Positions 13,177 through 18,557 of a stretch of 55,932 bases of DNA are shown in pieces. How positions within the stretch are numbered: position 1 is the first letter of the stretch; every line of letters begins with the position of its first letter. A program made the position numbers and the translations under genes. A model generated the notes under the pieces. It searched no databases and had not been told where the DNA came from. It saw only the letters and a list, made by a program, of their open reading frames with translations. The stretch is from Lunatimonas sp. (GTDB taxonomy: Bacteria > Bacteroidota > Bacteroidia > Cytophagales > Cyclobacteriaceae), in assembly GCF_020832325.1 (NCBI RefSeq), contig NZ_JAFIEU010000046.1, positions 1-55,932 on the forward strand. Direction: 5' to 3'.

Positions 13177-13395
13177 TCAATTTAACGTACCGCTGTCTTC
13201 AAAAACATAGCTTCGGTCTCTTTCGGAATAGACAATCCGTCTTCGGAAACTCACCTTTACCGAATCCAGAATATTGTACACCGTCCGTTCGGTCACGCCA
13301 AACTTCCTTGCCAGGTCCTTTGGTGAACCGGTTTTGCCTTTCTCGATCAGTTCCAACAATCTCATTGTTCGCTCGTAGTATTTTAATCCAGCCAT
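13177..13395 (-). CDS. Small HTH DNA-binding protein
   Basis: A 72-residue protein beginning MAGLKYYERTMRLLELIEKG, with a winged/HTH_11-like helix-turn-helix (GSPKDLARKFGVTERTVYNIL) and a short basic strand after it. It probably acts as a local transcription regulator. The start at 13395 is chosen because it aligns the first helix at the N-terminus and falls 12 bp after the exporter stop; an upstream in-frame ATG at 13434 would overlap the exporter gene. It is the last gene of the exporter operon, so it may feed back on that operon. Confidence 0.7.
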   Translation of the reverse strand: MAGLKYYERTMRLLELIEKGKTGSPKDLARKFGVTERTVYNILDSVKVSFRRRIVYSERDRSYVFEDSGTLN

Positions 13396-13406
13396 AGTTG
13401 TTTTGA

Positions 13407-15599
13407 TTAAGCGGTTGCGTGTAAATAAGTCCATTCCTGATATGCCTTGGCATACAAATTATCCCCGCCGATCAAGGCCGCGTGGGAACCTCGGGCAGTC
13501 ACCTTGCCCTCCTCCAATACCACAATGCGGTCGCACTGCCTAGCTATTCCCAACCGATGGGTAACCAGCATCAGTCCGACCTGCTTTCGTTTACAATAGG
13601 TAGTTAATAAAGTAAGTACCTTTTTTTCCATGCCAAAATCCATGGCAGATGTGGATTCATCCAGTATCAAATAAGGGGTGCCTTTGTACAAGGCCCTTGC
13701 TAGGCAAACCAGTTGCCGCTGACCGCCGGAAAGGTGCTTACCTTCCTCTCCACAAAGCGTCAACAAGCCCTGACCGATGTCTGCCAACAGGGCATCAAAT
13801 CCCGTCTCGGACAGAAACAACCCGACCTTTTCCAGTTCATTGGGGTCATTGGTCAGCGCGATATTGTCCAGAATCGTCGTGTTGAATACCTTTTCGTTTT
13901 GCCCGACCACGGCAAGGTTTCGCCGCCACTCCTGCACCGACCCCTCCGAAAGCCTCATTTCTCCCATCCGCAAACTCCCCTGTTCCGGCTGATAAAACCC
14001 CTGAAGCATATCCACCAAGGTACTCTTGCCGCTGCCGATTTTTCCAAATACTCCAACGGATTCTCCGGGGAGCAGCTCAAAATTAATTTGGTCCAAGAGT
14101 TTGGATTTTCCGGGAAACCTGAACGAAACCTGCTCCAATCGCAAAGATCCCAGAGGCCGTACAGATTGCTGCTGCACCTGCCCTACCGAAAGGTCCTCCA
14201 CCTCTAGCCTCGATATCTCAAACAACCGATCAAACGCCACTTTGGCTTCTTGCAGTTGAAAATTTACCAAAACCAAGCCTGAAATTGCCGGCATCAAAGA
14301 GCCTCCTACGGTCACCAAGGCCATCATTTCTCCTAATTGCAGTTGATCCTGCAATACCAGCCAAACTCCAAAGCCAAAAATCACTGTGATATAGAATCCG
14401 GCAATCAGTTGAGTAACAAAAGAAAAGGAATTGCCGAGGAGGGCTAGCGAGTAGCCTTTGGTCTGAAAAAAATCAAAGATTCGGTTAATTCGGTCTCCAA
14501 AGACCCCTTCTTTTCCGTAGGACTTGATCGTAGCTATTCCGGACAGGGATTCGATGTATTGGGATTCGTTCACCGAATGTGCCGCCATCATTTCCCGTTG
14601 GGATGCGACAATTGGCCTGTGGTATTTTTTAGCCACCAAAAAATAGACCACCAACCCACTTACTCCGATCAATCCCAATTCCCAGGAGTAATAAAACAGA
14701 TAGGCCAGTGAAACGATGATAACTAGGAAGTTGATCACCATATTGCCGATAACCAATGATACCGCATTTCGTATCCTTCCGGAATCATTTAAGCGGGCAA
14801 TTAAATCACCTGTGCTGCTCCCTTTGAAAAATGATATCGGTAACTTGATAGCCGTGGTAATGAACGACTCTACTAGTCTCACATTCAAATCCTTCCCTTG
14901 CCGGGCCATAAAAATCCCCTGAAGGTATCCTAAAAATGAGCGTATCGCCAATAAAGCTCCCAAAACGGCCAAACCAATCAAAATCATTTGCACATCCTTT
15001 TTTGGCAAAAAATCATCGATCAGCTTCTGGGAGAAAATTGCCGTAGACAGTCCGGTTACCGCTACCAATAGCCCTAAAATCGCAGAAATCAGCAAAATGG
15101 GAATATCTGCCTTGATCAAGGACTGAAACCATTTCCACTGGGACCGCATGGCTTCCCGTGCAGGTTTAAACCGATCGGTAGGAAACAGCTCGAGAAGCGC
15201 CTTGGACTGCCACATGCCATCCAGTTCTTCCGGCAGCAGGTATATGACACCCCAACCCGGATCCCCAACGACAAACTTCCCCTCTTCGAACCCAAAGCAC
15301 ACCACAAAATGAAGTCGGTTGTCTTTTACCACGTGCAATATCACGGGGTGATCCAATGTTTTCAAATGCTCTAAGGAACACTCAAATCCGTTCGCTGCAA
15401 AGCCAATTTTTTGTGCCGCTTGGCACAAACCCAGCAAGGAAGTTCCACTCAAGGTGGTGCCGCTGTTTTTCCGAAGTTCATCCTGAGAACATGCTCCACC
15501 ATACCAGTTGGCCACGGTGCTGAGGCAGGCCAAGCCGCAGGCAAACTCCCCGAGCTGCTTTACATGAATCCGATCAAGCTTTTCTTTAGACAGTTTCAT
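13407..15599 (-). CDS. Peptidase-containing ABC exporter (C39 peptidase, bacteriocin-type)
   Basis: Bifunctional inner-membrane transporter of 730 residues that would cleave a leader peptide, typically after Gly-Gly, and export the core. The N-terminal C39 cysteine protease has all key residues: Gln15, Cys21 in FACGLACL, His97 in LHFVV and Asp113 in VGDPG. The six-helix ABC membrane domain covers about 165-450. The nucleotide-binding domain has Walker A GKIGSGKST near 515, signature LSGGQRQLV and Walker B LILDESTSA. Length fits the family. The gene overlaps the glycosyltransferase gene by 14 bp, so the two are translationally coupled. No precursor peptide with a convincing double-glycine leader was found nearby. 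Confidence 0.92.
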   Translation of the reverse strand: MKLSKEKLDRIHVKQLGEFACGLACLSTVANWYGGACSQDELRKNSGTTLSGTSLLGLCQAAQKIGFAANGFECSLEHLKTLDHPVILHVVKDNRLHFVVCFGFEEGKFVVGDPGWGVIYLLPEELDGMWQSKALLELFPTDRFKPAREAMRSQWKWFQSLIKADIPILLISAILGLLVAVTGLSTAIFSQKLIDDFLPKKDVQMILIGLAVLGALLAIRSFLGYLQGIFMARQGKDLNVRLVESFITTAIKLPISFFKGSSTGDLIARLNDSGRIRNAVSLVIGNMVINFLVIIVSLAYLFYYSWELGLIGVSGLVVYFLVAKKYHRPIVASQREMMAAHSVNESQYIESLSGIATIKSYGKEGVFGDRINRIFDFFQTKGYSLALLGNSFSFVTQLIAGFYITVIFGFGVWLVLQDQLQLGEMMALVTVGGSLMPAISGLVLVNFQLQEAKVAFDRLFEISRLEVEDLSVGQVQQQSVRPLGSLRLEQVSFRFPGKSKLLDQINFELLPGESVGVFGKIGSGKSTLVDMLQGFYQPEQGSLRMGEMRLSEGSVQEWRRNLAVVGQNEKVFNTTILDNIALTNDPNELEKVGLFLSETGFDALLADIGQGLLTLCGEEGKHLSGGQRQLVCLARALYKGTPYLILDESTSAMDFGMEKKVLTLLTTYCKRKQVGLMLVTHRLGIARQCDRIVVLEEGKVTARGSHAALIGGDNLYAKAYQEWTYLHATA

Positions 15600-16998
15600 A
15601 ATAATGGCTTTTAGTTTGGGTTGTTGGATAAAGTAGCTTCGTTTCAGCCAGTAGATCGGCTAGCCGTTTGTGCTCCAGCTCATTTACCGTCCCCATGGTA
15701 TGCCGAAACGCCCGGATGGCTTCCCGATAACTCGTGGCATGATCCAGCATGTGGCGAATCTTTTGCTGTATAACGACACCGCTGTCCTTCCGGATATTGC
15801 CCATTTGCCCCAACCCCAGATACACCAATCGCGCGGCACAACCGGGTTGATCCCATTTAAGAGATAGCGGGTAAGCTAGCATAGGAAGCCCAGCAGCAAT
15901 ACACTCCTTGATTGAATTAATTCCCCCGTGGTGAATCATCAAATCTACCTGCGGCAATAGTGCCTTCTGGGCCACGCTGGGAAATACAGCGACATTTGAC
16001 GGTGTTTTGCAAAGGCGCCTAACATCCAGATAAGCACCTACACTCAATACAAAAAAAACGTCCTGCATATGGCTTGCTAGACGAATCACCTTGTTGAAAA
16101 AACGCTCGCATATCGTCAGATCGGTGACTGTTACGGTACCGAGCGAACAAAAAATCAGCTTTTTACCAGATGATTTGGCCAAATCTATCACCCGGTGCAG
16201 CCGTCGATCCTCCAGTGGCTGACCAAGCAGAACCTCCGGTAGCTTTCCGAAATAATACTTTTCACCTTGATGAAATGGAGCTGCAAAATCAAAGGACTTG
16301 GGGTAGGTAGCTATGATTGGCAATTCATTTATCCCTATTCCAAAACAACGACTGGTGTCTAGACTTAATTTGGACGGGCGATATTTTGCCCTGATCACTT
16401 CCTGGTATCTGCTATTCCCCAGTAAAAGTCTCTTCCACAATCCATTGTACCAGCTAGTTAGGTCTATCCGAAACCACGATGCTCGAACGAGCAGTCTACA
16501 AAAAACCGATCTAGCTGGAAAGCGCACACTTTGAAAGGGCGGGATACCCGGAGCCCGGTGTGGCAATGTCATGGTGGAAACCAACACCGTTGGCAGGCAC
16601 ATGCGTTCATACAAATAGGCTTTCAAAGCAAAATGATCGTCCAGCAATACAAGCGAAGGAGAGAGGGTATGTGTGGCGGCGACATACTCCAATCGGCGCG
16701 TCCTCATTTCCTCCATCAGCCGAGGCTTTCTTCTTCCTGACAATCGCTCCGCCAGCAGGCTGATCCATCCGTTCGCCTCTATCTCCGAGCGCTCTGGAAT
16801 CAATAAAAACGGATTGACCAATATAACCCGATATCCCTTGCTACCTACCAAAGCGGAATAATCGGGAGCAGTCAAAAAAACGACCTCATAGCCCAATTCC
16901 TTCATCCAATCGGCCAGATTTAAGAATGCCTGAACGTGACCCATGGCTGGAAACGGATCCATCAATACTACCGGAGAAACAGATTTTACCGAATTCAT
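15586..16998 (-). CDS. GT1-family (UGT/MGT-like) glycosyltransferase
   Basis: Cytoplasmic GT-B fold glycosyltransferase of 470 residues. The N-terminal half starts with the acceptor-side pattern FPAMGHVQAFLNLADWM near residue 15. The C-terminal half carries the sugar-nucleotide signature HHGGINSIKECIAAGLPMLAYP near 370-391, followed by WDQPG. This is the macrolide/UDP-glycosyltransferase type that sugar-modifies small molecules or peptides. Its position between a thioredoxin-like protein and a C39 exporter, with overlap to the exporter, suggests that the exported product is glycosylated before export. Donor and acceptor are not determined. Confidence 0.87.
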   Translation of the reverse strand: MNSVKSVSPVVLMDPFPAMGHVQAFLNLADWMKELGYEVVFLTAPDYSALVGSKGYRVILVNPFLLIPERSEIEANGWISLLAERLSGRRKPRLMEEMRTRRLEYVAATHTLSPSLVLLDDHFALKAYLYERMCLPTVLVSTMTLPHRAPGIPPFQSVRFPARSVFCRLLVRASWFRIDLTSWYNGLWKRLLLGNSRYQEVIRAKYRPSKLSLDTSRCFGIGINELPIIATYPKSFDFAAPFHQGEKYYFGKLPEVLLGQPLEDRRLHRVIDLAKSSGKKLIFCSLGTVTVTDLTICERFFNKVIRLASHMQDVFFVLSVGAYLDVRRLCKTPSNVAVFPSVAQKALLPQVDLMIHHGGINSIKECIAAGLPMLAYPLSLKWDQPGCAARLVYLGLGQMGNIRKDSGVVIQQKIRHMLDHATSYREAIRAFRHTMGTVNELEHKRLADLLAETKLLYPTTQTKSHYYETV

Positions 16999-16999
16999 T

Positions 17000-17524
17000 T
17001 TAATTGCTGTTAGGTAAGTGATTTAATAATGAAGCCACTTTTGCCGGTCCTTCGAACCTCCAAACCAATTGTCCGTCCATTCCGAATATCATAGAAACCG
17101 GCACCTTGGATACCTGAAACCTAGACGCCACCCAGGCATCCTCATCGCAAACGAAATAGACAGAATTCTCTGATTCCCAGTCAAACGATTGCTTAAACTC
17201 TTCAATATCTGTCCGATCCTCAGAGGATACAAAAACCAACAAGGCAGGTTCAAACGCTTTCCTGTTCTGATTGATTTGAGAGATCTCGTGCCTGCATAGA
17301 TCGCAACCGGAATGAAAATATATTATCATTATCGGCATCTTGCCGACAAAGTCCGATAAGTCTAGAAAGGTCCCCTCTACTGTCTTCATCGGACGCTCTC
17401 CAATAGAAAAACCGGTTGCTTCCAACTTTTGCAATCTCTTGTACTTTCCAATTATAGACCAGCCCAAGACTCCTACGAAAAGGAAAACCAACATTAGTAC
17501 CGTGTATTTTGCTCGTGTGTGCAT
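17000..17524 (-). CDS. Membrane-anchored thioredoxin-fold (TlpA/redoxin-like) protein
   Basis: A 174-residue protein with an N-terminal membrane anchor (about residues 8-25) and a periplasmic redoxin domain. The redox motif is CDLC at 74-77 in FHSGCDLCRHE, and the cis-proline region is KVPVSMIF. It probably reduces or forms disulfides in an exported substrate. The stop is one base before the glycosyltransferase start region, and its own start abuts the stop of the membrane-protein gene upstream (17525), so the genes form one transcript. The preceding Gly-Cys with Leu between the cysteines differs from the usual CxPC, so reductase versus isomerase activity cannot be predicted. Confidence 0.82.
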   Translation of the reverse strand: MHTRAKYTVLMLVFLFVGVLGWSIIGKYKRLQKLEATGFSIGERPMKTVEGTFLDLSDFVGKMPIMIIYFHSGCDLCRHEISQINQNRKAFEPALLVFVSSEDRTDIEEFKQSFDWESENSVYFVCDEDAWVASRFQVSKVPVSMIFGMDGQLVWRFEGPAKVASLLNHLPNSN

Positions 17525-18163
17525 CTACATCATATTTAAGGTAAAAAACATAACCAAGATCACCCAGCAAAACATACCCATGCCATAGGAGGTAACCACG
17601 ATGCGTGAACTTCTGAGAAATGGGATCTCCACTTCCTCCTTTAGAAAATAAATGAGTAGCACGATATACGCCAATTCAAAGGCGTTGACCAATTGCAAGG
17701 GGTAAACAAAAATCTGATGCAGGGTAGAATAGTCAAAAAAACTAATGGCTGAAAGCGGGTAGTATTTCATGAACGCATCATAAGAGAAGTCGCCGGAAGA
17801 GATTACCATGATCTTTATCAGCACGGCGATCACCAAAATACTCTCTGCGTATACAGCCACATTAAACAAGCGTGAAAGTGGCTGATTATGATGGTAATTG
17901 GCAAAAAATAATCCGCTATACAAAAGGGCAGCCACCAAAAATGCCTTTACCACAAAGATCAATACAGAGAAAAGGAGGCTGAATTTACTCCAATATTTTA
18001 GTTGGTCTAGGCCCTCCAAAAGCACATGCTCCGGAATATCCAGATCACCCTGTTCCAGTATCTGACGGAAGATTAAACTCTCCAAGTCTATCAGATAGAA
18101 ATTTACTGCATAAATCACTACCGCGTAAAAGACGATGATCAATAAGCTTTTCATAAAAAACAT
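17525..18163 (-). CDS. Polytopic membrane protein of unknown family
   Basis: Predicted inner-membrane protein of 212 residues with about five hydrophobic helices (around residues 4-24, 55-80, 95-120, 150-175, 190-210). It has no redox Cys pair, so it is not a MauE/DsbD-type electron carrier; it resembles Yip1-type small polytopic proteins only in layout. The start at 18163 (or 18154, MKSLLII) is preferred over a TTG at 18178. It opens the exporter operon and its stop touches the next start codon. A role as a scaffold or immunity protein for the exported product is conceivable but not shown. Confidence 0.65.
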   Translation of the reverse strand: MFFMKSLLIIVFYAVVIYAVNFYLIDLESLIFRQILEQGDLDIPEHVLLEGLDQLKYWSKFSLLFSVLIFVVKAFLVAALLYSGLFFANYHHNQPLSRLFNVAVYAESILVIAVLIKIMVISSGDFSYDAFMKYYPLSAISFFDYSTLHQIFVYPLQLVNAFELAYIVLLIYFLKEEVEIPFLRSSRIVVTSYGMGMFCWVILVMFFTLNMM

Positions 18164-18184
18164 GTTAAAGAAACTCAAACAAGA

Positions 18185-18319
18185 TTAACTAACCTTTCGG
18201 CTAACACCACCTGCCTTCAACACAGAAATGAATACACTTACAAACAAAGGAACGGAACGATGATTTGATAAGAGATTTGGCCAAAAGGAACAAAAAAATA
18301 GTGCTATTCCACTAAGCAT
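18185..18319 (-). CDS. Candidate 44-residue small ORF at the head of the exporter operon
   Basis: An ATG-started frame of 44 codons in AT-rich DNA ends 21 bp before the membrane-protein start. It encodes a hydrophobic stretch and ends in LKAGGVSRKVS. The frame stays open for about 34 more codons upstream without an ATG, GTG or TTG. The Gly-Gly near the C-terminus would leave only six residues after cleavage, so it does not match a normal double-glycine precursor. It is listed because this is where an operon-leading precursor would be expected. Real coding status is uncertain. Confidence 0.25.
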   Translation of the reverse strand: MLSGIALFFCSFWPNLLSNHRSVPLFVSVFISVLKAGGVSRKVS

Positions 18320-18557
18320 ACCAGTTTTTGATCCTTGAAGAAAAATCCCGATAAAATAATCACCTAGAAGGCCTGATGAATTAATACCTTGGTGAATTAA
18401 ACAATATTTACTTACAATTTTTCATCAAATCATTACAATGACATAATATTAGGAAATTCAAGTTAAATAGTCAAGTGTAAAGACAAAAAAATAAAATGAA
18501 CGCCTATAAATGTGATTTCAAGAGCATAATATAATAAACAAACAGATACTATTTCTC

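Follow-up and report, generated by a model that had tools for sequence, protein, structure and literature searches.

A probable maturation and export hub for scattered bacteriocin-type peptides in Lunatimonas, with a candidate peptide glycosyltransferase

The 55,932-nucleotide contig NZ_JAFIEU010000046.1 of Lunatimonas sp. (assembly GCF_020832325.1), here called the window, carries five intact minus-strand open reading frames (ORFs) at positions 13177-18178. They encode a membrane protein (MEM), a thioredoxin-like protein, a GT1 glycosyltransferase, an exporter with a C39 peptidase domain and a small helix-turn-helix (HTH) protein. We propose, with somewhat better than even confidence, that this operon is a bacteroidetocin-like hub for maturation and export, equipped with a probable peptide glycosyltransferase and serving bacteriocin-type peptides whose genes are scattered elsewhere. 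The initial annotation had described a compact five-gene operon, and all five ORFs proved real, intact and located where it had placed them, in an order shared with Lunatimonas salinarum (L063) and with a third Lunatimonas, G095 (L066).

The exporter (13407-15599, minus strand, as are all features below) is of the peptidase-containing ATP-binding cassette (ABC) transporter type (PCAT). Peptidase_C39 (1.6e-26), ABC_membrane (7.1e-42) and ABC_tran (1.2e-26) all match one protein in Pfam, the four catalytic residues Gln15, Cys21, His97 and Asp113 are present as first reported, and a PDB search matched the solved bacteriocin PCAT 4ry2 at 2.7e-87. The thioredoxin-like (redoxin) protein (17000-17524; AhpC-TSA, 8e-07) has a single N-terminal hydrophobic segment and Cys74 and Cys77 in a CDLC motif, bearing out its description as a membrane thioredoxin-like CDLC protein; the CxxC is retained in all 11 aligned homologues. 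MEM (17525-18163) has one Cys and five hydrophobic regions in a simple hydropathy scan, with overlapping segments merged by us. Neither Pfam nor NCBIfam gave a match for it at E 0.1, in keeping with the earlier account of a membrane protein that could not be assigned, and homologues with 40-81% identity occur in 11 other genomes among the 148 searched within the bacterial family. By position and topology, MEM appears to be the counterpart of the five-transmembrane (five-TM) protein of bacteroidetocin regions. No LanB/LanC/LanM or radical S-adenosylmethionine (SAM) enzyme matched among the five operon proteins in Pfam or NCBIfam, again as first stated.

The genes are tightly packed. The MEM ORF spans 17525-18178 from a TTG start, with in-frame ATG alternatives at 18163 and 18154, and MEM abuts the thioredoxin gene, which a gap of 1 bp separates from the GT1 gene (15586-16998). 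GT1 and exporter are coupled by the 14-bp overlap noted before, which the ORF list confirms. The HTH ORF covers 13177-13434, and alignment with relatives puts the start at 13395 (MAGLKYYER), so a short gap follows the exporter and an overlap with it is not required; the annotation was right about the small HTH gene, and its overlapping or abutting arrangement is corrected to this extent. The resulting gene (13177-13395) gives weak HTH family matches in Pfam and is strongly conserved directly after the exporter in relatives; we propose that its product regulates the scattered precursors.

In related genera, a small ORF follows the MEM-thioredoxin-C39-HTH genes and encodes a leader such as MRELSIEKMEMVSGG and a hydrophobic core that contains two Cys. 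The check named beforehand was to look for a small ORF conserved next to homologous operons, and the relatives supply one. The accompanying claim, that no precursor of a known family exists, is true of the window and fails for the genome, where precursor genes lie elsewhere. Using a profile built from 11 peptides beside relatives' operons (E up to 1e-3), we recovered 11 orphan precursors from the three Lunatimonas genomes: one each on contigs C7, C16 and C13 of the window genome (G000), five in G018 and three in G095. The leader, about 15 residues long, has the form M[KR]ELSxxxMExxxGG and ends in a double glycine (GG), and the core is short, hydrophobic and Gly/Ala-rich, with a Cys close to either end. 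The precursors belong to no curated family; their best matches, below cut-off, are models of GG-leader bacteriocins and type 2 lantibiotics. With a 20-row profile of precursors, 24 of the 148 family genomes gave a match. Of these, 13 had supplied profile rows and hence match by construction; among the remaining 11, seven have a MEM match no more than 5 kb away on that contig and four do not. Across 57 peptides (60 minus two HlyD-type, one truncated, one dubious ORF and one near-duplicate, plus two), cores have a median length of 51 residues, and the outer two Cys lie about 4 residues from either end. Two core Cys are present in all 20 precursors filed as GT1-associated, a set in which the Lunatimonas precursors are filed by genome and not by adjacency and in which two (G807 and L316) lie beside a GT1 in stretches that hold no C39 peptidase.

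Small membrane proteins or ABC cassettes encoded beside some precursors likely provide immunity. A stop interrupts the leader of the C13 precursor, and another interrupts one of the five G018 precursors. Precursor-like ORFs with in-frame stops were seen at G000:C13:32056-32220, at G000:C7 near 2283 and at G018:C100:882-1058, which suggests that precursors may be gained and lost quickly. The two intergenic gaps of the window were considered as sites of a local precursor and rejected, as comparison in six frames with L063 and L066 revealed no conserved coding.

The orphan precursors share an upstream element. The palindrome ACTGAAA-N5-TTTCAGT, matched with up to 3 mismatches, lies within 100 nt upstream of 9 of the 11, about 60 nt before the start codon. 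The three Lunatimonas genomes contain 28, 25 and 27 sites, compared with 2, 7 and 5 hits to a control made by reversing the pattern, and by our arithmetic 80 sites in 16 Mb would place one in about 0.05% of 100-nt stretches. Other sites precede small membrane proteins, ABC genes or decayed precursors, one precedes a second C39 operon, and many are unexplained. Arrays of a palindrome variant, ACTGAAATTTCATTTCAGT, with a spacing of about 0.5-1.8 kb, occur at G000:C31:5766-10313 (L150) and G095:C109:4111-8486 (L181); no precursor was found alongside these arrays, and in both of them one site lies close to the start of a lipoprotein-like ORF.

In other genera, precursors are preceded by a palindrome at a similar distance with different letters. 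A palindrome of this general form precedes 20 of 27 precursors from genomes or loci with a window-type HTH gene versus 1 of 33 others, in our own grouping of 60 rows, two of the 33 being the HlyD-type peptides of Lunatimonas. The letters vary with the recognition helix of the HTH protein: ACTG...CAGT is paired with ERTVYN (window, L063, L066, L076) or KERMIYN (L075), (G/A)GTGAAA...TTTCACC with KRMVYL/M or KRMIFL (L067, one L068 copy, L070, L072, L074, L215), and GGTGACA...TGTCACC with KRTVYR (another L068 copy, L069, L071, L200). With helix classes of our own, set after viewing the alignment, and a third L068 copy excluded, 15 classed helix-site pairs agree at the outer letters with no exceptions (naive chance 1 in 3003, by genus 1 in 84). 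Within L068, where pairing is by position, two tandem copies differ in helix and site together. This co-variation makes the HTH protein of the operon the likely regulator and thereby ties the scattered precursors to the operon. The L068 copies belong to tandem cassettes in one genome (L068:2900-13100) that include MEM and exporter ORF fragments; in every cassette an HTH ORF (partial in one case) accompanies a GG precursor with its own variant of the palindrome upstream.

The glycosyltransferase matches the Pfam models EryCIII-like_C (3.3e-07) and UDPGT (9e-05); its nearest PDB match is the 'glycosyl transferase' 10zg, followed by YjiC and, further down, oleandomycin glycosyltransferases. The GH and HGGxNSxxE...DQPG regions are invariant across 5 aligned GT1 cluster members. 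We placed the protein in a tree that covers 44 loci and 46 GT1 proteins, with at least G136:C25:347916, G102:C350, G332:C13 and G677:C84 and some weaker hits lying outside this set. The window GT1 falls in a clade of six (support 100/99) made up of three Lunatimonas proteins, G100, G031 and G345, the last from another family. All six clade members reside in MEM-thioredoxin-C39 clusters, and the position of GT1 within them varies: between thioredoxin and C39 genes in Lunatimonas and G345, directly before C39 in G100, and after precursor and ABC genes in G031. Separate GT1 lineages are found in such clusters in genus g285 (L300, L304, L308, L309) and in G705 (L307). A further lineage accompanies C39 exporters and Cys-rich GG peptides, and the two neighbours tested there are a VKOR-thioredoxin protein and a C39-VKOR-thioredoxin protein; at L258:10290-11997, a single protein with C39 peptidase, VKOR and thioredoxin domains stands beside GT1 and Cys-rich GG peptides. 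The C39+MEM label changes at least four times on starred branches of the tree, which implies repeated gain or loss of the association. Overall, a C39 peptidase is encoded in the fetched stretch at 25 of the 44 GT1 loci, counting the window (stretches of up to 20 kb, some ended by contig ends, the window being longer); the chance rate is about 0.7% per 18 kb, from 2 C39 genes in a genome of 5.34 Mb.

As for where a sugar might be attached, no acceptor residue stands out when six residues are compared by three measures across the 57 precursors. A Tyr no more than 7 residues away from the last Cys is present in 18 of 20 GT1-associated precursors and in 22 of the 37 others (p 0.018 before any correction), a signal that, with this many comparisons, serves as a lead only.

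The identical five-gene order in L. salinarum and G095 extends to the same flanking genes, and since the same genes recur in the same order we do not regard the grouping as chance. This synteny with L. salinarum KCTC 42988 puts the source of the window, contig 28 of its assembly, within Lunatimonas or close to it (Cyclobacteriaceae, Cytophagales). Relative to G095, the operon diverges more than its neighbours, the HTH gene apart: identities are 61% for MEM, 44% for the thioredoxin-like protein (108 residues), 42% for GT1 and 63% for the exporter, versus 88% for the HTH protein, 93% for a CRP-like protein, 92% for a TonB-dependent receptor and 85% for a DUF4249 protein. Relative to L. salinarum, the thioredoxin-like protein (59%) and GT1 (68%) are low, as is one flanking gene (69%), and the exporter (89%) and HTH protein (88%) are higher. 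Upstream lies an operon leader (18179-18500) conserved in all three species, with 85% identity over 269 bp to L063 and 70% over 304 bp to L066. In six frames against these two, nothing in it is conserved as coding, and a promoter-like TTGACT-N17-TAATAT lies at 18446-18474. An RNA element was considered for this leader and set aside, its single Rfam match (E 0.71) being at chance level.

Related clusters also occur beyond the family. Across the phylum, 26 of 395 genomes gave a match to a MEM profile at E 1e-6. At the 11 fetched MEM loci outside the family that have no GT1, thioredoxin and C39 exporter genes are in the cluster at nine, and a GG peptide fitting the precursor profile is present at seven. 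Searching plasmids with the MEM homologue of a relative returned two Flammeovirga records and no others. On the Flammeovirga pectinis plasmid NZ_CP034564.1:43934-51369 (L338), a MEM homologue, a redoxin, an ABC exporter and a small ORF cluster together with a GLPGLI protein, a LanC-type gene and a GT1.

Taken as a pathway, the system would work as follows. The HTH protein probably controls the scattered precursors through ACTGAAA-N5-TTTCAGT, as activator or repressor. In the cytoplasm, GT1 may well add a sugar to the precursor. The C39 domain very probably cleaves after GG while the ABC part exports the core, with substrates supplied in trans, a step to which the intact catalytic residues point. 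In the periplasm, the anchored CDLC protein quite probably closes the disulfide, assisted by the five-segment MEM, as published knockouts of the counterparts would lead one to expect. The exported product is likely to act on other Bacteroidota. Whether this amounts to an undescribed group of Bacteroidota glycosylated bacteriocins (two-Cys, disulfide-closed, modified by a GT1 and not a SunS-type enzyme, drawn from a scattered and changeable repertoire that one operon matures and its HTH protein controls) seems to us evenly balanced, a judgement that also covers the proposal, drawn from the tree, that GT1 enzymes may have joined such clusters more than once.

Several findings weigh against the hub proposal, beginning with the gene that would supply a sugar. 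GT1 is optional: among 12 genomes whose MEM reaches 40% identity or more, 5 have a GT1 of this kind (that of G102 is cut by a contig end) and 7 show none; no C39 peptidase is encoded in the stretch at 19 of the 44 GT1 loci, including C36 (L079), the other strong GT1 of the window genome; and one Flammeovirga cluster has its GT1 gene next to a LanC-type gene instead. The enzyme might be merely co-transcribed and modify something other than the peptides (a lipid or surface sugar, a small molecule, or an immunity target), with the peptides exported unglycosylated like the described bacteroidetocins. We consider this less likely than not. Characterised relatives of GT1 use macrolides and other small molecules, most related clusters have no GT1 and the precursors show no outstanding acceptor; against this, the window clade is confined to peptide clusters, in three gene orders, the repeated label changes show an association gained or lost more than once, and further relatives of the enzyme are encoded next to GG peptides, C39 exporters and VKOR-thioredoxin proteins.

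The regulatory link has its own difficulties. None of the three Lunatimonas (window, L063, L066) has a precursor within its operon or next to it, the palindrome was looked for before the window operon itself and is absent, the C13 precursor and one of the two G018:C100 precursors have none, most sites precede no recognisable precursor, and the third L068 copy (partial HTH ORF KERMVYM, site GATGACA) breaks the helix rule. In addition, a second C39 exporter at G000:C40 (L078:6044-10184), with a HlyD-type partner and a cerein 7B-like GG peptide, is also followed by an HTH gene and has the palindrome 71 nt before the first gene of its operon. Because C40 has its own HTH gene and palindrome, the orphans may be exported or controlled by that system, leaving the window operon to serve other peptides. 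We think this improbable: the orphan leaders and two-Cys cores resemble peptides beside window-type operons in other genera, whereas the C40-adjacent peptide has a longer leader and a Cys-free core and matches a lactobin/cerein 7B model, and it is the window-type HTH helices that co-vary with the palindrome across genera. That the peptides are signals (pheromones) and not bacteriocins is more improbable still. Pheromones are also exported by C39 systems, ComA is among the PDB matches of the exporter, and about 25 palindrome sites per genome make a sizeable putative regulon; yet the cores are hydrophobic, with the median length given above, and very different within one genome, several precursors are followed by ABC or small membrane genes, and the bacteroidetocin precedent is killing.

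The hub proposal suggests where orphan double-glycine peptides in such bacteria mature. The palindrome offers a DNA signature for locating peptide genes far from any export gene, scattered peptides that mining confined to the exporter neighbourhood would overlook, and the GT1 clade supplies candidate peptide glycosyltransferases. Both the HTH-palindrome pairing and sugar transfer are open to direct testing.

Classic glycocins derive from precursors with at least four Cys, which form two disulfides. The initial annotation had likened the operon to a glycocin maturation system. Peptide maturation and export, a disulfide-related protein and an exporter-tied GT1 are all retained from that comparison; membership in the glycocins is not. 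The published clusters of sublancin, glycocin F and pallidocin combine a SunS-like enzyme with a C39 exporter and a thiol-disulfide oxidoreductase (PMC12457901, PMC6405829). The window operon likewise has a glycosyltransferase, a C39 exporter and a thiol-disulfide oxidoreductase-like protein, but its enzyme is a GT1, its associated cores have two Cys (20 of 20), and the sugar would be on the peptide only by our proposal. The window glycosyltransferase fits GT1 models and not the SunS-type model TIGR04195, for which no match above cut-off was found genome-wide. Glycosyltransferases in clusters for ribosomally synthesised and post-translationally modified peptides (RiPPs) of Bacteroidales are already published: such clusters hold glycosyltransferase genes and PCAT exporters, mainly in radical SAM/LanC clusters (PMC10352776). 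The glycosyltransferase and PCAT are shared with our operon, and radical SAM/LanC genes are unmatched among its five. We found no description of GT1 combined with bacteroidetocin-type genes in the open-licence literature, to the extent that its text was accessible.

Enzyme type and Cys number do not fit the glycocins. Among known systems, that of the bacteroidetocins is the nearer relative. Bacteroidetocin regions encode a five-TM protein, a peptide, a thiol oxidoreductase and a C39 ABC exporter; activity drops when either the TM protein or the oxidoreductase is deleted, and a sensitive strain gains protection from neither; and the relatives form four classes with leaders of 15-16 residues and at least two Cys (PMC6671954). 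Bacteroidetocin A is reported to act on BamA. The operon described here adds GT1 and HTH genes, and its peptide genes are scattered: a GG-leader peptide gene with at least two Cys, found in the same region in bacteroidetocin systems, is absent from the window and occurs elsewhere in the genome and beside relatives' operons. The likeness is drawn from gene content. It includes the predicted five-TM protein, the CDLC redoxin as putative thiol oxidoreductase and the C39 ABC exporter, and the precursors here also have a GG leader of about 15-16 residues and at least two Cys.

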